In this document: piece after piece, positions 9,270 to 19,600 of the stretch
Position numbering within the stretch: the stretch's first letter is position 1
Layout of the letters: every line of letters starts with the position of its first letter
Origin: Capniomyces stellatus
Taxonomy: Eukaryota > Kickxellomycota > Harpellomycetes > Harpellales > Legeriomycetaceae
Assembly (NCBI GenBank): GCA_001661515.1
Contig: LUVW01000031.1
Span: 1 to 64,000, forward strand
Direction of reading: 5' to 3'
Length of the DNA: 64,000 nucleotides
The notes under the pieces: generated by a model
Told to the model about the DNA's origin: nothing
What the model saw: the letters and a program-made list of their open reading frames with translations, nothing else
Database searches by the model: none
Program-made: the position numbers and the translations under genes

Positions 9270-9539
9270 TCTGCATTAGTAGAAACTAATTAAATAATTT
9301 TGATATTATTAATGTTGCCTATTCAACAAAGAGCGAAATTTGCTGACTTCAGTTTTTTTATTTTATTTGATATCAATGGAAAAAAAAACAAATGTTGATT
9401 TCGATACTAAGTTTGAACTCGAGCAATTTAAAGATTCTCCAAAGTTTGGACTAAATTAATTCGTTTCTCAAAATTGTATATTATTTTTTTATTTTTTATT
9501 TACGAAACTGACAAATCATTTTATAGATGTTGGTAATAG
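9270..9539. other. Upstream region of SGF11
   Basis: AT-rich sequence between the SGF11 start and the LINE remnant. It presumably contains the SGF11 promoter. No distinct element is recognised. Confidence 0.4.
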
Positions 9540-9981
9540 CTGTAAGTTAGCACAAGTACATTCTTTTCTACTCAACATCCTTATATATAATACCTGCACT
9601 ATTAATAAACTAAATATACAATTAATGATTAATCTGCCCCCTCTCGTCCTACTAGGGGCATCTTATCTTGCCGTCTTGATTCGATGTCATGATCTAGTAT
9701 CCATTTTGTAATTTCGGACACGTCGTTCTTTTTTGTCATCTTTACTAGTGCCTCTGCTGCTCCTCCTGCCTTGTCCGAGTCACTGTATTTCTTTAACCAT
9801 CTGATGCAGCCGCTTACCCATGTGTTGCATCTGTTTTTGAATGGTTTGTCTATTAGATCTTTGATCCAAGTTCTGTTACTTACTCGTTTGAAGTGGGCTC
9901 TTTCTCTTGCTGGAGTTATCCTGCTGTTTACTGATGGGATTTTTAGTTCCTGTCTCAGTCTGACCATGGATGTGATTTTAC
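9540..9981 (-). mobile_element. LINE (non-LTR) reverse transcriptase remnant, unit 1
   Basis: A minus-strand frame (9967-9629) encodes 112 residues of a non-LTR retrotransposon C-terminal region (MVRLRQELKIPSVNSRITPARE..., ending at a stop at 9629), plus probable 3' UTR to about 9540. In unit 2 the same peptide is preceded by sequence typical of the region after the RT domain (SVLIPIACYGGKLFGMSKA), which supports a LINE origin. The upstream (5') part of this copy is replaced by the abnormal block at 9982-10317. The element is truncated and has no complete RT in the window. Confidence 0.6.
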
Positions 9982-10317
9982 GACGTGAGTACTAAACAGA
10001 ACAACGAAACAGCTAATGAAAAACATTACCGAACGTAGAACGAAACGAGTAAGGTTTATCAAACGGAGGTATCGTGCGATAACCCTACTCATGACTAGAC
10101 TGATCATAACAAGAATCACGGTGTCCCCATAAAGACAGACGACTCCTTCTTCGACCTGCACTAATGTGAAAGGGACCACAACCGATGCAACAAGAAATAA
10201 CAAGCAAACGTACAGGTCAGCCTCAACCTGTCATAAGAGTCCATGAACATAAACAGACTGTACCTCTGCTAAAGAAGAAACTAAAATTTGAGTTTCAGTT
10301 TCAGAACCCAACTGAAA
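9982..10317. other. 336-base block: complement without reversal of the LINE segment
   Basis: Base by base, this block is the unreversed Watson-Crick complement of 13768-14103, with no gaps and no mismatch found on reading through it. The flanks on both sides (to 9980, and from 10318) are collinear with the other units in normal orientation. A true inversion would give the reverse complement, so this is not explained by known DNA rearrangement. It is best treated as a sequence-assembly or processing error over the LINE 5' part. Any open frame read inside it is meaningless. Confidence 0.93.
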
Positions 10318-10571
10318 TGTTATTTATTGCATTTAACTTTACGCATTTTTTGATATTATATGGTACTTGGGGTTAATGCTTGTTTAATGGTTATACTTTA
10401 TTTTGGAGCTCCTGGTTGGCAGCTATAAAAAACTACAAGCTTAATAAAGAGTGAGAACAGCTGTCAACTAATATTGGCCAGCTTTGTCTGATAGTAAAGT
10501 AGAAAAGAATAAATAAAGTGGAAATCGCGAAACTAAACGGCAGAAATGTGCCATTGATACTTGAACCTAAT
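10318..10571. other. 3' flank of secreted-protein gene, unit 1
   Basis: Sequence shared almost unchanged by all three units (14104-14357 and 17059-17312). It holds the likely 3' UTR of the minus-strand gene. No separate gene is seen. Confidence 0.5.
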
Positions 10572-11885
10572 TTAGATGATGAACATCGAAATAGCGCCTA
10601 AAGCAACAGTGGAAATTTTCAGGACGCTATTGACAGATCCAATGTTGTTGCCAGCCCCATTTACTATTTTGGCCACAGGTTTATTGTCAGGTGCAGCTGG
10701 AGCAAAGTAACGAGTGTCTTCTTCGCTAAGTTTAACCTCACTGTCCAAGACCTTAAAAATATTATCAAAATCGGACCTGGTTCCAGTCTCGTTGGTGCCG
10801 GTGAAAACAGTATTGACAGCATCTTTGACTACGTCCAAAACAAACTTTAAAGCATAGACTGTGGCTTCGATCGTGCTTTCGTTGTATTCTTTAATCAAAA
10901 CATCTTCTTCGCTTTTATCATTAGTTTTGAGAGTAGAGATAACATTAATATCTTCTAAATATACCATAAGGAGCTCACGGAGTTTTGTATTAATATAATC
11001 AGGATCAAAGACAACTTCACGCTTAATAATTCGGTTGCTATCAATATCACTCTGTAATCGAAAAAGTTCCATGACTTTGCTGACTATGCTGGCAATATAT
11101 TTAATTTCATCTTTTTTTTCTTCAATGTAAGATTTCAGACTTTTTGCTAAATCAACTTTGGGGCCTTTGAAATAAGTGCTGTTCAGCTTATCTTTATAGC
11201 CAACAATGAACGACATACGTCTTATAAACTGTGAGCCTGCTACTTTAAAACTTAGTTTTTGCTTTTTGGAATCGAGTTCTTTGAGCTCAAAGAAATATTT
11301 GAGAATTTCGTTCTCTTTGAGTTTTTCGAGTTTTTGGATACTTAAGGTTATACCGTTATCGGGTTTAAAAAAATTTTCGATACTTTCAAAATTTTTGGAA
11401 TCATTTTCAAAATTGAAATTAAAATCAGCTTCGAGATTTTTGATCTTTGAGAGATTTGCATTATCTTCATCAGTCCTGGAATCACTACCTTTAGCTTCAA
11501 TTTTAATTTTGAGCGCTTTAAGCCAATTGTACATTTTGAGCCATTTATCTCTTCCATTTTTAAAAGCATCATAGTCAGTAATTCCCTTTTTAATCGCTTC
11601 AACCAACTCAGCATATTTTTTATTAATATCATTCCTGTATAAGAATGTTACTTTGTTTGTTAAAATATCTTTAACAAATGTTTTAAGCCAGATTTGACTC
11701 CGACTTTCAGAATCTTCCCCGTCTCTACGGTACAATTTACCAGTTAAATTTTGATTTACTGCGCCTACTTCAGATCCTCTAACTCTTGAGCTTGAGTCAA
11801 TCTCAGAAGCACCAGGACTGCCTTCTTCAGTCTTTGAATAGGCTTGGGCGACAAGGGCCAACTGGAATACTGCTGCGATTCTCAT
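10572..11885 (-). CDS. Predicted secreted GPI-anchored protein, array copy 1
   Basis: 437 aa, intronless, family not recognised. It starts with a signal peptide (MRIAAVFQLALVAQAYS) and ends with a small-residue stretch and a hydrophobic tail (NGAGNNIGSVNSVLK... to IISTOP) that fits a GPI-attachment signal, so a cell-surface or wall location is inferred. The mature region is Lys/Glu-rich and probably helical. Possible N-glycosylation sites are NLT, NST and NET. Dibasic sites KLYRR (after residue 50) and IIKRE in the second half could be Kex2 cleavage sites. Copy 1 lacks the poly-Gly tract of copies 2 and 3. It matches copy 2 near residues 55-75 and copy 3 near residues 210-330. A TATA-like element lies 75-95 bp upstream of the start. 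Confidence 0.8.
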   Translation of the reverse strand: MRIAAVFQLALVAQAYSKTEEGSPGASEIDSSSRVRGSEVGAVNQNLTGKLYRRDGEDSESRSQIWLKTFVKDILTNKVTFLYRNDINKKYAELVEAIKKGITDYDAFKNGRDKWLKMYNWLKALKIKIEAKGSDSRTDEDNANLSKIKNLEADFNFNFENDSKNFESIENFFKPDNGITLSIQKLEKLKENEILKYFFELKELDSKKQKLSFKVAGSQFIRRMSFIVGYKDKLNSTYFKGPKVDLAKSLKSYIEEKKDEIKYIASIVSKVMELFRLQSDIDSNRIIKREVVFDPDYINTKLRELLMVYLEDINVISTLKTNDKSEEDVLIKEYNESTIEATVYALKFVLDVVKDAVNTVFTGTNETGTRSDFDNIFKVLDSEVKLSEEDTRYFAPAAPDNKPVAKIVNGAGNNIGSVNSVLKISTVALGAISMFII

Positions 11886-11961
11886 TTTTCTGTTCTGTTC
11901 CTTTTTTTTGAAGTAGTGTGCTTGGAGTTGGTTTTTCTGTTGACTTTGTTGGAAAAGAAAG

Positions 11962-11980
11962 TATATATTTATATATTTAT
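11962..11980 (-). promoter_or_regulatory. TATA-like promoter element, copy 1
   Basis: Alternating A/T sequence (TATATAAATATATAC on the minus strand) 77-95 bp upstream of the copy 1 start codon, in a region conserved in all units. Confidence 0.35.
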
Positions 11981-12846
11981 TGTTTTATATTGTGGGTTTA
12001 TTTATGTTTTATTCTCAAGTCGATGGATGAGGATAATTTTAAAATTTTGAGAAGGGTGGCGGACATGCTTCTTATATATTTTTTTTCTACTTTCAAAATA
12101 ATAGATACCACACCCTATTTCACCATGTTAATTCCTGTTGGAAATGATAATACAACTACTAAAAGCTGTGAAAATAAAGGGTTTGGGAGTATAGGTTTGG
12201 AAGTATGGGTTCATCTGGTCTTGTAAAGGTGCAAGTAACATTATGTTGTATGTTTACGTTTATTTACAAACATAAAAGCAGAGTGTACGATGTGGAACTG
12301 TAAAAAAGAAAAACAACGAATATTCCAAAGGAATATTATTAGACACGTAAAAGCAGAATACAGGCAAATACTGAGATAAGAGAAAAGAAGCAGTTACAAA
12401 ATGGCGCATACTTGGTGCGTGTATTTGGTTGGAGTGCGTGTGTAAAGCCAATTAGGACTGCCAAAGAAACTTTATCGAAAACAAGAAGGACACATCGATG
12501 AGTTGACAAAGATCAGTGGCCGATGAACAAAACACAGAACAAAATACAGAACAAAAGATTTAGAAGCATGGAAATGGAAAGAGTAAGGATTGCGCGAGTC
12601 TATAGTAAAAAGTTTTGGATGTCTAGTATATCAACAAAGCTACGAGTTTATAGCTTCCATTTGCAAAGGTCGTCACATAATTGTACATAACAGCGATGGT
12701 GATTATTGGTGGAAACAAAAAACACACATAACGTTTGGTAAATAAATCAAACACTCTACTCGATGGCGATTGGACTGGCATGCTTTTTTGACGTGCTAGT
12801 ATGTAGAGAATATAGAATAACAAAGGTAGAACAAAGGTAGAGCAAA
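11981..12846. other. Upstream intergenic part of unit 1
   Basis: Conserved in all three units. Short open frames on both strands recur in each copy only because the DNA is duplicated; they lack motifs. It presumably contains regulatory sequence for the minus-strand gene. No gene is called. Confidence 0.5.
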
Positions 12847-12908: not shown

Positions 12909-13693
12909 NNNNNNNNNNNNNNNNNNNNNNNNNNNNNNNNNNNNNNNNNNNNNNNNNNNNNNNNNNNNNNNNNNNNNNNNNNNNNNNNNNNNNNNNNNNN
13001 NNNNNNNNNNNNNNNNNNNNNNNNNNNNNNNNNNNNNNNNNNNNNNNNNNNNNNNNNNNNNNNNNNNNNNNNNNNNNNNNNNNNNNNNNNNNNNNNNNNN
13101 NNNNNNNNNNNNNNNNNNNNNNNNNNNNNNNNNNNNNNNNNNNNNNNNNNNNNNNNNNNNNNNNNNNNNNNNNNNNNNNNNNNNNNNNNNNNNNNNNNNN
13201 NNNNNNNNNNNNNNNNNNNNNNNNNNNNNNNNNNNNNNNNNNNNNNNNNNNNNNNNNNNNNNNNNNNNNNNNNNNNNNNNNNNNNNNNNNNNNNNNNNNN
13301 NNNNNNNNNNNNNNNNNNNNNNNNNNNNNNNNNNNNNNNNNNNNNNNNNNNNNNNNNNNNNNNNNNNNNNNNNNNNNNNNNNNNNNNNNNNNNNNNNNNN
13401 NNNNNNNNNNNNNNNNNNNNNNNNNNNNNNNNNNNNNNNNNNNNNNNNNNNNNNNNNNNNNNNNNNNNNNNNNNNNNNNNNNNNNNNNNNNNNNNNNNNN
13501 NNNNNNNNNNNNNNNNNNNNNNNNNNNNNNNNNNNNNNNNNNNNNNNNNNNNNNNNNNNNNNNNNNNNNNNNNNNNNNNNNNNNNNNNNNNNNNNNNNNN
13601 NNNNNNNNNNNNNNNNNNNNNNNNNNNNNNNNNNNNNNNNNNNNNNNNNNNNNNNNNNNNNNNNNNNNNNNNNNNNNNNNNNNNNNNNNNNNN
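12909..13693. other. Assembly gap (785 N)
   Basis: A run of 785 Ns between the unit 1 microsatellite and the unit 2 LINE remnant. By comparison with the other units it should hold the rest of the microsatellite, the GAGATA tail and the 3' part of the LINE copy. An open frame crossing the Ns is artificial. Confidence 0.95.
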
Positions 13694-14103
13694 TGCTGGA
13701 GTTATCCTGCTGTTTACTGATGGGATTTTTAGTTCCTGTCTCAGTCTGACCATGGATGTGATTTTAACTGCACTCATGATTTGTCTTGTTGCTTTGTCGA
13801 TTACTTTTTGTAATGGCTTGCATCTTGCTTTGCTCATTCCAAATAGTTTGCCTCCATAGCACGCTATTGGGATGAGTACTGATCTGACTAGTATTGTTCT
13901 TAGTGCCACAGGGGTATTTCTGTCTGCTGAGGAAGAAGCTGGACGTGATTACACTTTCCCTGGTGTTGGCTACGTTGTTCTTTATTGTTCGTTTGCATGT
14001 CCAGTCGGAGTTGGACAGTATTCTCAGGTACTTGTATTTGTCTGACATGGAGACGATTTCTTCTTTGATTTTAAACTCAAAGTCAAAGTCTTGGGTTGAC
14101 TTT
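13694..14103 (-). mobile_element. LINE reverse transcriptase remnant, unit 2
   Basis: Minus-strand coding remnant of a non-LTR retrotransposon. It reads from DKYKYLRILSNSDWTCK (14045 downward) to CYGGKLFGMSKARCKPLQK and KITSMVRLRQELKIPSVN, with a frame break near 13909. The order matches the region just after the RT catalytic domain. It is truncated on both sides, with the gap on the left and unit sequence on the right from 14104, so it is non-functional. Confidence 0.65.
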
Positions 14104-14357: not shown

Positions 14358-15698
14358 TTAGATGATGAACATCGAAATAGCGCCTAAAGCAACAGTGGAA
14401 ATTTTCAGGACGCTATTGACAGATCCAATGTTGTTGCCAGCCCCATTTACTATTTTGGCCACAGATTTATTTTCAGGCGCAGCTGGAGCAAAGTAACGAG
14501 TGTCTTCTTCGCTAAGTTTAACATCATTTTTCAAGACACTAAAAATATTATCAAAATCGGACCTGGTTCCAGTCTCGTTGGTGCCGGTAAAAACAGTATT
14601 GACAGCATCTTTGACTACGTCCAAAACAAACTTTAAAGCATAAACTGTGGCTTCGATCATGTTTTCGTTGTATTCTTTAATCAAATCAACTTCTTCGCTT
14701 TTATCATTAATTCCAGTTTTGAGAGTAGAGATAACATTAATATCTTCTAAATATACCATAAGGAGCTCACGGAGTTTTGTGTTAATAGAACCAAAATCAG
14801 TGACAGTGTCACGCTTACTAATTACGCTGCTTGTAATGACACTTTGTACTTTAAGAAATTCCATGATTTTGCTGGCTATGTTGGCAATATATTTAACTTC
14901 ATCTTTTTTTTCTTCAATGTATGATTTCAGACTTTTTGTAAAATCACTTTTTTGGGTTTCGAAATAAGTGCTGTTCAGCTTATCTTTATAGCCAACATTG
15001 AATAATATACGTCTCAAAAATAGTGAGCCAGCTGCTTTAAAACTTAGTTCTTGCTTTTTGGAATCTTCGAGTTCTTTGGAATCTTCGGACTTAAAGTTAG
15101 ATTTGAGACTTTTGAGTATTCCGAGTTTTTCGGAACTTAAGGTTTCACCGATATTGGTTATAAAAAAATTATTAATCTTTTTGATACTTTCTAAATCATC
15201 GAGAGATCCGAGTTCAAAAGCAACCTTGATACTATTGAACTTCTCAATAATGTCGGTGTAATCAGCATTGCGACTACCACCACCACCACCACCACCTTCA
15301 GCTTCAGCTTCAATTTTAATTTTGAGCGCTTTAAGCCAATTGTACCTTTTGAGCCATTTATCTCTTCCATTTTTGAAAGCATTATATTCAGTCTTTCCCT
15401 TTTCAATCGCTTGAATCAACTTAACAAATGTTTCATCACTGCCTTTTTTCTCAACGTATAGTTTGGTTTTTGTTAAAATATCTTTAACAAATGTTTTAAG
15501 CCAGATTTGACTCCGACTTTCAGAATCTTCCCTGTCTCTACGGTACAATTTACCAGTTAAATTTTGATTTACTGCGCCTACTTCAGATCCTCTAACTCTT
15601 GAGCTTGAGTCAATCTCAGAAGCACCAGGACTGCCTTCTTCAGTCTTTGAATAGGCTTGGGCGACAAGGGCCAACTGGAATACTGCTGCGATTCTCAT
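14358..15698 (-). CDS. Predicted secreted GPI-anchored protein, array copy 2
   Basis: 446 aa, the longest copy. The first ~54 and last ~30 residues are essentially those of copy 1 (signal peptide and GPI-like tail). The centre is more different: it has EAEAEGGGGGGGSRNADYTDII and the NNFFITNIGETLSSEKL segment shared with copy 3. It also has its own version of residues 215-320 (SLFLRRILFNVGYKDK, YFETQKSDFTK, ISKRDTVTDF). The dibasic KR in the second half is kept although its surroundings changed. It is intact, with no frameshift. Function is unknown; a surface protein is inferred from the ends. Confidence 0.8.
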   Translation of the reverse strand: MRIAAVFQLALVAQAYSKTEEGSPGASEIDSSSRVRGSEVGAVNQNLTGKLYRRDREDSESRSQIWLKTFVKDILTKTKLYVEKKGSDETFVKLIQAIEKGKTEYNAFKNGRDKWLKRYNWLKALKIKIEAEAEGGGGGGGSRNADYTDIIEKFNSIKVAFELGSLDDLESIKKINNFFITNIGETLSSEKLGILKSLKSNFKSEDSKELEDSKKQELSFKAAGSLFLRRILFNVGYKDKLNSTYFETQKSDFTKSLKSYIEEKKDEVKYIANIASKIMEFLKVQSVITSSVISKRDTVTDFGSINTKLRELLMVYLEDINVISTLKTGINDKSEEVDLIKEYNENMIEATVYALKFVLDVVKDAVNTVFTGTNETGTRSDFDNIFSVLKNDVKLSEEDTRYFAPAAPENKSVAKIVNGAGNNIGSVNSVLKISTVALGAISMFII

Positions 15699-15773
15699 TT
15701 TTCTGTTCTGTTCCTTTTTTTTGAAGTAGTGTGCTTGAAGTTGGTTTTTCTGTTGACTTTGTTGGAAAAGAAA

Positions 15774-15793
15774 GTATATATTTATATATTTAT
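15774..15793 (-). promoter_or_regulatory. TATA-like promoter element, copy 2
   Basis: Same A/T-alternating element as in copy 1, 76-95 bp upstream of the copy 2 start. Confidence 0.35.
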
Positions 15794-16659
15794 TGTTTTA
15801 TATTGTGGGTTTATTTATGTTTTATTCTCAAGTCGATGGATGAGGATAATTTTAAAATTTTGAGAAGGGTGGCGGACATGCTTCTTATATATTTTTTTTC
15901 TACTTTCAAAATAATAGATACCACACCCTATTTCACCATGTTAATTCCTGTTGGGAATGATAATACGACTACTAAAAGCTGTGAAAATAAATGGTTTGGG
16001 AGTATGGGGTTGGAAGTATGGGTTCATCTGGTCTTGTAAAGGTGCAAGTAACATTATGTTGTATGTTTACGTTTATTTACAAACATAAAAGCAGAGTGTA
16101 CGATGTGGAACTGTAAAAAAGAAAAACAACGAATATTCCAAAGGAATATTATTAGACACGTAAAAGCAGAATACAGGCAAATACTGAGATAAGAGAAAAG
16201 AAGCAGTTACAAAATGGCGCATACTTGGTGCGTGTATTTGGTTGGAGTGCGTGTGTAAAGCCAATTAGGACTGCCAAAGAAACTTTATCGAAAACAAGAA
16301 GGACACATCGATGAGTTGACAAAGATCAGTGGCCGATGAACAAAACACAGAACAAAATACAGAACAAAAGATTTAGAAGCATGGAAATGGAAAGAGTAAG
16401 GATTGCGCGAGTCTATAGTAAAAAGTTTTGGATGTCTAGTATATCAACAAAGCTACGAGTTTATAGCTTCCATTTGCAAAGGTCGTCACATAATTGTACA
16501 TAACAGCGATGGTGATTATTGGTGGAAACAAAAAACACACATAACGTTTGGTAAATAAATCAAACACTCTACTCGATGGCGATTGGACTGGCATGCTTTT
16601 TTGACGTGCTAGTATGTAGAGAATATAGAATAACAAAGGTAGAACAAAGGTAGAGCAAA
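15794..16659. other. Upstream intergenic part of unit 2
   Basis: Near-identical to 11981-12846, with only scattered single-base differences. No gene is seen. Confidence 0.5.
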
Positions 16660-16731: not shown

Positions 16732-16732
16732 N

Positions 16733-17058
16733 GATTTGTCTTGTTGCTTTGTCGATTACTTTTTGTAATGGCTTGCATCTTGCTTTGCTCATTCCAAATA
16801 GTTTGCCTCCATAGCACGCTATTGGGATGAGTACTGATCTGACTAGTATTGTTCTTAGTGCCACAGGGGTATTTCTGTCTGCTGAGGAAGAAGCTGGACG
16901 TGATTACACTTTCCCTGGTGTTGGCTACGTTGTTCTTTATTGTTCGTTTGCATGTCCAGTCGGAGTTGGACAGTATTCTCAGGTACTTGTATTTGTCTGA
17001 CATGGAGACGATTTCTTCTTTGATTTTAAACTCAAAGTCAAAGTCTTGGGTTGACTTT
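16733..17058 (-). mobile_element. LINE reverse transcriptase remnant, unit 3
   Basis: Same remnant as 13778-14103. The segment equivalent to 13694-13777 is missing at the single N (16732), so this join probably hides a gap of unknown size. The peptide DKYKYLRILSNSDWTCK is again present on the minus strand. Confidence 0.65.
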
Positions 17059-17312: not shown

Positions 17313-18638
17313 TTAGATGATGAACATCGAAATAGCGCCTAAAGCAACAGTGGAAATTTTCAGGACGCTATTGACAGGTCCAATGTTGTTGCCAGCCCCA
17401 TTTACTATTTTGGCCACAGGTTTATTGTCAGGTGCAGCTGGAACAAAGTAACGAGTGTCTTCTTCGCTAAGTTTAACATCATTTTTCAAGACACTAAAAA
17501 TATTATCAAAATCGGACTTGGTTCCAGTCTCGTTGGTGCCGGTAAAAACAGTATTGACAGCATCTTTGACTACGTCCAAAACAAACTTTAAAGCATAGAC
17601 TGTGGCTTCGATCGTGCTTTCGTTGTATTCTTTAATCAAAACATCTTCTTCGCTTTTATCATTAGTTTTGAGAGTAGAGATAACATTAATATCTTCTAAA
17701 TATACCATAAGGAGCTCACGGAGTTTTGTATTAATATAATCAGGATCAAAGACAACTTCACGCTTAATAAATTGGCTGCTTTTAATATCACTATGTAATC
17801 GAAAAAGTTCCATGACTTTGCTGACTATGCTGGCAATATATTTAATTTCATCTTTTTTTTCTTCAATGTATGATTTCAGAATTTTTGCTAAATCAACTTT
17901 GGGGCCTTTGAAATAAGTGCTGTTCAGCTTATCTTTATAGCCAACAATGAACGACATACGTCTTATAAACTGTGAGCCTGCTACTTTAAAACTTAGTTCT
18001 TGCTTTTTGGAATCTTCGAGTTCTTTGGAATCTTCGGACTTAAAGCTAGGTTTGAGTTTTTTGAGTTTTTCGAGTTTTTCGGAACTTAAGGTTTCACCGA
18101 TATTGGTTATAAAAAAATTATTAATCTTTTTGATATTTTCTAAATCATCGAGAGATTCGAGTCCAAAAGCATTATTGATACCATTGAACTTGTCAATAAT
18201 GTCGGTGTAATCAGCACTGCGACTACCACCACCACCACCACCACCTTCAGCTTCAATTTTAATTTTGAGCGCTTTAAGCCAATTGTACCTTTTGAGACAT
18301 TTATCTCTTCCATTTTTGAAAGCATTATATTCAATCTTTCCCTTTTTAATCGCTTCAATCAACTTAAATGTTTTATCATTATCTGGTTTCTTAACGTATA
18401 GTTTGGTTTTTGTTAAAATATCTTTAACAATTTCTTCAAACCAGATTGAAATTTTATTTTCAGAAACTTCGTTGCTTCTACGGTACAATTTACCAGTTAA
18501 ATTTTGATTTACTGCGCCTACTTCAGATCCTCTAACTCTTGAGCTTGAGTCAATCTCAGAAGCACCAGGACTGCCTTCTTCAGTCTTTGAATAGGCTTGG
18601 GCGACAAGGGCCAACTGGAATACTGCTGCGATTCTCAT
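17313..18638 (-). CDS. Predicted secreted GPI-anchored protein, array copy 3
   Basis: 441 aa with the same signal peptide and GPI-like tail as copies 1 and 2. After residue 54 it has its own segment (SNEVSENKISIWFEEIVKD), then a centre like copy 2 (poly-Gly tract, SADYTDII, NNFFITNIGETLSSEKL). From about residue 210 it reads as copy 1 (SQFIRRMSFIVGYKDK, KGPKVDLAK, IKREVVFDPDYINTK), and it returns to the copy 2 form at FSVLKNDVKL. This patchwork indicates gene conversion or unequal crossing-over between copies. The frame is intact. Function is unknown. Confidence 0.8.
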   Translation of the reverse strand: MRIAAVFQLALVAQAYSKTEEGSPGASEIDSSSRVRGSEVGAVNQNLTGKLYRRSNEVSENKISIWFEEIVKDILTKTKLYVKKPDNDKTFKLIEAIKKGKIEYNAFKNGRDKCLKRYNWLKALKIKIEAEGGGGGGGSRSADYTDIIDKFNGINNAFGLESLDDLENIKKINNFFITNIGETLSSEKLEKLKKLKPSFKSEDSKELEDSKKQELSFKVAGSQFIRRMSFIVGYKDKLNSTYFKGPKVDLAKILKSYIEEKKDEIKYIASIVSKVMELFRLHSDIKSSQFIKREVVFDPDYINTKLRELLMVYLEDINVISTLKTNDKSEEDVLIKEYNESTIEATVYALKFVLDVVKDAVNTVFTGTNETGTKSDFDNIFSVLKNDVKLSEEDTRYFVPAAPDNKPVAKIVNGAGNNIGPVNSVLKISTVALGAISMFII

Positions 18639-18713
18639 TTTTCTGTTCTGTTCCTTTTTTTTGAAGTAGTGTGCTTGGAGTTGGTTTTTCTGTTGACTTT
18701 GTTGGAAAAGAAA

Positions 18714-18733
18714 GTATATATTTATATATTTAT
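18714..18733 (-). promoter_or_regulatory. TATA-like promoter element, copy 3
   Basis: Same A/T-alternating element as in copies 1 and 2, 76-95 bp upstream of the copy 3 start. Confidence 0.35.
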
Positions 18734-19600
18734 TGTTTTATATTGTGGGTTTATTTATGTTTTATTCTCAAGTCGATGGATGAGGATAATTTTAAAATTT
18801 TGAGAAGGGTGGCGGGCTTGCTTGTTATATCGTTTTTTTCTACTTTCAAAATAATAGATACCACACCCTATTTCACCATGTTAATTCCTGTTGGAAATGA
18901 TAATACAACTACTAAAAGCTGTGAAAATAAAGGGTTTGGGAGTATAGGTTTGGAAGTATGGGTTCATCTGGTCTTGTAAAGGTGCAAGTAACATTATGTT
19001 GTATGTTTACGTTTATTTACAAACATAAAAGCAGAGTGTACGATGTGGAACTGTAAAAAAGAAAAACAACGAATATTCCAAAGGAATATTATTAGACACG
19101 TAAAAGCAGAATACAGGCAAATACTGAGATAAGAGAAAGGCAGCAGTTACAAAATGGCGCATACTTGGTGCGTGTATTTGGTTGGAGTGCGTGTGTAAAG
19201 CCAATTAGGACTGCCAAAGAAACTTTATCAAAAACAAGAAGGACACATCGATGAGTTGACAAAGATCAGTGGCCGATGAACAAAACACAGAACAAAATAC
19301 AGAACAAAAGATTTAGAAGCATGGAAATGGAAAGAGTAAGGATTGCGCGAGTCTATAGTAAAAAGTTTTGGATGTCTAGTATATCAACAAAGCTACGAGT
19401 TTATAGCTTCCATTTGCAAAGGTCGTCACATAATTGTACATAACAGCGATGGTGATTATTGGTGGAAACAAAAAACACACATAACGTTTGGTAAATAAAT
19501 CAAACACTCTACTCGATGGCGATTGGACTGGCATGCTTTTTTGACGTGCTAGTATGTAGAGAATATAGAATAACAAAGGTAGAACAAAGGTAGAGCAAAA
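18734..19600. other. Upstream intergenic part of unit 3
   Basis: Near-identical to the equivalent parts of units 1 and 2, with a small cluster of changes near 18815-18832. No gene is seen. Confidence 0.5.

Follow-up and report, generated by a model that had tools for sequence, protein, structure and literature searches.

Does a genome hold DNA that complements its sister copy base for base while keeping the same polarity, or does such a string arise only where sequence is handled in files? The question is raised by a block of 336 bases in an assembly of Capniomyces stellatus (24.5 Mb, 59 contigs). The window analyzed here is the first 64 kb of a 285-kb contig (C25), and its genes, among them those for a polo-box kinase, a ubiquitin hydrolase, and a carnitine acyltransferase, mark it as eukaryotic; neither an Rfam family nor a tRNA was detected in it. 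Three units stand in tandem here, and the block sits in the first of them, inside a 5'-truncated, degenerate retrotransposon fragment. Each unit contains such a truncated fragment and a minus-strand gene for a protein of 437–446 aa, and it terminates on the right with a GAAAGTAA microsatellite (Table 1). The three protein copies are 71–82% identical, and their DNA differences cluster in the middle of the gene between nearly identical flanks. Judged by eye, these proteins have a hydrophobic start and end, as in secreted or anchored types; copies 1 and 2 had no match in Pfam, and the unit 2 protein had no further match in this genome.

Table 1. Features in and around the complemented block (positions in the window).
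Feature	Position	Strand	Remark
Retrotransposon copy, 3' end, left of block, normal polarity	9681–9981	-	Genome matches of 9400–9981
Left junction	9981/9982	.	9981 normal, 9982 complemented; exact to the base
Block complemented but not reversed, unit 1	9982–10317	.	336/336 complement of 13768–14103; ranks first in window and loci by complement log-likelihood ratio
Right junction	10317/10318	.	10317 complemented, 10318 normal; exact to the base
Tandem protein genes (437–446 aa), three copies	10575–11984, 14361–15797, 17316–18737	-	
785-N gap	12909–13693	.	Where the left part of the unit 2 retrotransposon fragment would be
Unit 2 counterpart, normal polarity, retrotransposon fragment	13768–14103	-	13694–14083 matches C34 (95%) and C57 (93%) in direct continuity
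Single-N gap at unit 3	16732	.	Sequence resumes 10 bases past the equivalent of the block's left edge
Unit 3 counterpart, normal polarity	16733–17058	-	Starts directly after the single-N gap

The first-pass annotation of the window had claimed that the block is the ungapped plain complement of its unit 2 counterpart; it expected an identity of about 100% and named about 95% as the threshold of refutation. The claim was borne out well above that threshold, since the unreversed complement of the block equals 13768–14103 at 336/336 positions, with no mismatch or indel. The available part of unit 3 likewise equals the plain complement of the corresponding block bases (326/326). Compared with unit 2 in the other orientations, the block agrees at 0/336 positions directly, at 80/336 when reversed, and at 102/336 when reverse-complemented, and among the 24 letter permutations, each read in both directions, the unreversed complement is the sole one above 210/336. 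The block therefore follows one fixed base-exchange rule with its polarity kept (336/336), and it switches sharply to and from regular sequence, both edges being exact to one base, as described for "swinger" DNA. The string is also what the expected sequence would become if its reverse-complementing were left incomplete, and the replacement is in place, the length being unchanged relative to the counterpart.

The edges themselves carry information. A base change that had been assigned to 9981 turned out to be misplaced: the C at this position is common to unit 1 and all of the outside genomic copies reaching the site (5/5), and unit 2 alone has an A, at the equivalent position 13767. Because this C is the family base, it is unit 2 that deviates, and the left edge of the block is exact. 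The private A adjoins the block-equivalent edge; it may stem from a faulty consensus call next to the gap. The right edge is exact because 10318–10508 is identical in units 1, 2, and 3. The first-pass annotation also held that both flanks match the other units, which is correct for 10318–10508 and for 9908–9980 (73/73 with another unit), but not for 9629–9907, as nothing left of 9908 has a unit counterpart; the unit 2 equivalent of 9629–9907 presumably lies within the 785-N gap. When the block is read as complement, the single difference between units 1 and 2 across the 601 bases 9908–10508 is the one adjoining the left edge, which is placed as the boundary of a graph node would be, although this is a post hoc observation. 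In this reading, units 1 and 2 share an exact repeat of 527 bases (9982–10508). Two features count against an artefact. The right edge is marked by no difference between the units, which stay identical for another 191 bases, and neither junction has an N or a duplicated overlap, i.e., the contig bears no mark of a patch. The number 191 equals 2 × 96 - 1, which would suit a k of 96 (or 192), though for now this is numerology. Matches to the C34 and C57 copies end (at the equivalent of 14083) about 20 bases short of the right edge.

Copies of the element elsewhere in the genome indicate which unit was altered. Among the 29 genome matches of 9400–9981, 19 start at 9681–9684, the 3' end of the element, and their other ends differ, the pattern expected of 5' truncation. 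The part of the element adjoining the block on the left (9681–9981) is matched by copies elsewhere at 92–98% (four copies over about 300 bases). Five outside copies (on contigs C34, C57, C38, C14, and C3) run across the equivalent of 9981/9982 without a break and in normal polarity. Those on C34 and C57 each cover 316 of the 336 block-equivalent bases (at 94 and 93%, respectively), and those on C38, C14, and C3 cover 94, 59, and 48 bases, respectively. Since these five copies and units 2 and 3 are all of normal polarity, unit 1 is the altered, derived copy. The C57 copy has one 220-aa open frame through the whole region, of which the block corresponds to residues 84–189. RVT_1 was detected at residues 11–87 of this frame, just upstream of the block-equivalent part (30.1 bits, cut-off 29.6), and in the C34 copy (53.1 bits); Pfam gave no match for three retrotransposon frames of units 1 and 2. 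The element is probably a non-LTR retrotransposon, an assignment that rests on RVT_1 in the fuller copies and on the common 3' end with variable 5' truncation. One frame of the block, read in its present form, gave a DUF3413 match (E 0.005; 16.4 bits against a cut-off of 27.1), which was taken as chance.

The truncated 3' end also recurs at a spacing of 3.86–3.91 kb on three contigs (C25:137119 and 141006; C33:249771 and 253685; C34:671240, 675096, and 678953), which suggests that it is part of further tandem duplications. At one locus on C38 (L007), a 54-base stretch of the retrotransposon occurs twice, at 2200 and 2564, 364 bases apart; the first occurrence stops at a single N, as if the end of a contig had been duplicated and left beside a gap.

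The block lies at a site of assembly difficulty. Units 2 and 3 are interrupted at the same place, by the 785-N and the 1-N gap, respectively, and unit 1 runs through it without a gap. Sequence resumes in unit 2 at 74 bases before the equivalent of the block's left edge, and unit 3 begins, after its single N, at the equivalent of 9992; the join at 16732 may hide missing sequence. Single-N gaps recur, at 16732 and 59857 in the window and at five distinct sites in the other loci that we analyzed (L005, L007, L015, L017, and L026), and may represent gaps of negative size for which one N was written.

A partial survey covering the window and 55 loci of the 24.5-Mb genome revealed no second complemented block. 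Elsewhere in the window, no complement match reached 20 bases, and other exchange rules, forward or reversed, gave no 30-mer match in the window apart from low-complexity sequence. A complement self-BLAST of the window and the 55 loci (the loci amounting to 211,711 bases, overlaps included) gave 64 matches, and the 60 listed all involve 9982–10317 or its duplicate among the loci (L061). Complement queries were also run against the genome, the best candidates alone being scored: the 3' end of the element (301 bases) and 552 bases of the unit gave no match, and the C34 element (725 bases) matched C25:9982–10297 only. As the 3' end has at least 19 copies of normal polarity, its complement could have detected a complemented one. 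That the block stands alone was counted against a software fault, since a recurrent fault might leave several blocks, in so far as a partial survey can tell.

A strand-aware Markov test, in which the complement of each 300-base segment was scored against the segment itself (log-likelihood ratio, in nats), singles out the block without reference to its sister units. With leave-out models, trained on the window and the loci after removal of the segment under test and of all copies of the block, the block ranked first of 253,857 overlapping segments at k = 5 (23.3 vs 12.2 nats for the next; mean -9.5, sd 7.1) and again first at k = 4 (15.3 vs 11.8 nats). Under a model trained on the window alone, it led the window with 22.7 vs 4.2, and the highest scores in the loci were 19.3 (L031, on C15), 17.5 (L055), 14.2 (L007), 13.8 (L027), and 13.2 (L054). 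The value of 19.3 for a low-complexity coding repeat on C15, next to 22.7 for the block, means that the test has false positives. This repeat, one of six stretches inspected, was rejected as a second block; it is a normal minus-strand coding frame with a methionine start and threonine-rich repeats, and its leave-out score was 11.6. Under the leave-out models the L055 stretch scored 8.3 at k = 4 and fell outside the best 12 at k = 5. The power of the test is about 61%, as estimated with an in-sample model that recovered 1194 of the 1948 complemented 336-base pieces of the window, and further complemented blocks are therefore possible despite the scan.

Judging from these sequence comparisons, we have little doubt that the block is a digital artefact, arisen at whatever stage, and not DNA of the organism. 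To our knowledge, no process of accepted biology complements a strand with its polarity kept, and because accepted DNA biology performs no such exchange, an error of strand handling in a file is almost certain. An artefact of assembly, gap filling, or file handling had been proposed in the first-pass annotation, and this proposal agrees with the exact edges, the unchanged length, the single block found, the gapped sister units, and the normal polarity of the copies elsewhere. The accompanying statement that no known process could do this holds for accepted biology, but claims of such an exchange (PMC4942731) and of parallel synthesis (PMC4304224) have been published, as far as the accessible parts of these papers go.

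We infer that the error was a software one, made during assembly or the closing of gaps, and that what was skipped was the complement. Unit 1 would have included a 336-base piece placed on the opposite strand and carried as a graph node, a patch, or a gap fill, such a carrier being likely because units 2 and 3 are gapped at the same spot. This piece would have entered the contig reversed, with the complement step omitted; since reversal of the reverse complement of a sequence X gives the complement of X, the outcome would be the observed string in the right place, with unchanged length and seamless edges. The setting of the error would be the truncated retrotransposon in a three-copy tandem repeat of which units 2 and 3 are gapped. 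The first-pass annotation had spoken of an error that "complemented but did not reverse" a segment, which is right for the string; as a mechanism, reversal without complement of a minus-strand piece is the simpler route, because it needs one omitted step instead of a superfluous step on a plus-strand piece. It counts against an artefact that the error could not be traced to a particular program, and that a literature search covering few subscription journals brought up nothing that looked like a report of such a block as an artefact of assembly (PMC9635638 proved irrelevant).

How, then, do the other explanations fare against an error at the assembly stage? The same type of error might have been made after deposition, when the sequence file was copied or prepared, so that the public assembly would be normal here. 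Its outcome would look identical, and the genome copy that we searched does contain the block but comes from the same source as the window and is hence not independent. A repeat with assembly gaps in both sister units, however, fits the assembly stage, whereas a random later error would fall there only by chance, and we regard a post-deposition origin as unlikely. We give about as little credence to a variant in which the contig was flipped by a case-sensitive routine that failed to complement a lower-case, soft-masked repeat. By our reasoning, this would yield blocks reversed in place but not complemented, with exact edges; it is disfavored because the neighboring 300 bases of that retrotransposon copy (9681–9981), which would be masked as well, are in normal polarity, though a lower-case gap fill might still fit.

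Far less probable is a real 336-bp duplex in the nuclear genome, synthesized by a polymerase that preserved the polarity of its template (as a parallel strand or by an A↔T + C↔G swinger exchange) and then replicated normally. The block does match the swinger DNA of the Kamimuria wangi 16S gene, as reported in part of PMC4942731, in its string, in the sharpness of its switches, and in replacing sequence in place, and parallel-direction synthesis in PCR is claimed by one paper (PMC4304224, in the parts available). Against a real duplex stand the lack of accepted enzymology, as far as general knowledge goes, the fact that, of the 23 rules, A↔T + C↔G alone can result from an error of strand handling, and the position of the sole block found next to an assembly trouble spot. 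As for an ordinary inversion, a mirror repeat, or chance similarity, we found nothing in favor, and the probability is negligible. The block is not the reverse complement of its counterpart (102/336), the reversed reading is no better (80/336), both are near chance level, and the other permutations reach at most 210/336, so that inversion, mirror repeats, and other exchange rules are out for the window; chance as the source of 336/336 is out of the question.

If the block is an artefact of strand handling, as we believe, it offers a clean and checkable example of an error class that is invisible to ordinary aligners, which consider identity and reverse complement only, and it warns that published A↔T + C↔G swinger DNA needs proof at the level of reads. 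The strand-aware Markov score flags such a block even where it has no homologue, its false positives notwithstanding. If the block were real, copying of a template without antiparallel geometry would overturn the basic chemistry of replication.

Misassemblies of tandem repeats and transposon copies usually collapse or expand them, or invert them properly, and leave strand chemistry intact. The block shares their setting of near-identical units, gaps, and truncated repeats, but differs in the chemistry, which the usual misassembly keeps. The parallel-direction DNA synthesis claimed in PCR (Bhardwaj and Sharma, 2014, PMC4304224) resembles the block in that the product is described as complementary to the template with polarity kept; it differs in being in vitro, primer-driven, and on a single-stranded template of 120 bases, and the abstract and results, in the parts available, say nothing on genomes. 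A close published parallel in DNA is the mitochondrial 16S gene of K. wangi, presented as swinger DNA with the A↔T + C↔G exchange (Seligmann, 2016, cited in PMC4942731). According to the accessible sections of PMC4942731, this was the sole rule detected in DNA until then, for unknown reasons; short swinger repeats in the mitogenome are also mentioned there, and swinger RNA reads are argued to be non-artefactual. For the K. wangi mitogenome, PCR fragments were cloned, read in both directions, and joined with ContigExpress, DNAMAN, and CodonCode Aligner, and its lrRNA secondary structure is described as consistent with other insects (PMC3900512, in the sections available), which sits ill with a complemented gene. 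Like the block, the K. wangi swinger DNA, as there described, is an unreversed complement with sharp switches, embedded in regular sequence. It concerns an rRNA gene in a small, PCR-assembled mitogenome, and ours 336 bases in a repeat of a draft assembly. Unlike the K. wangi case, as far as the available parts of these reports describe it, the block has normal sister copies adjoining it, in which the original state is visible base by base.
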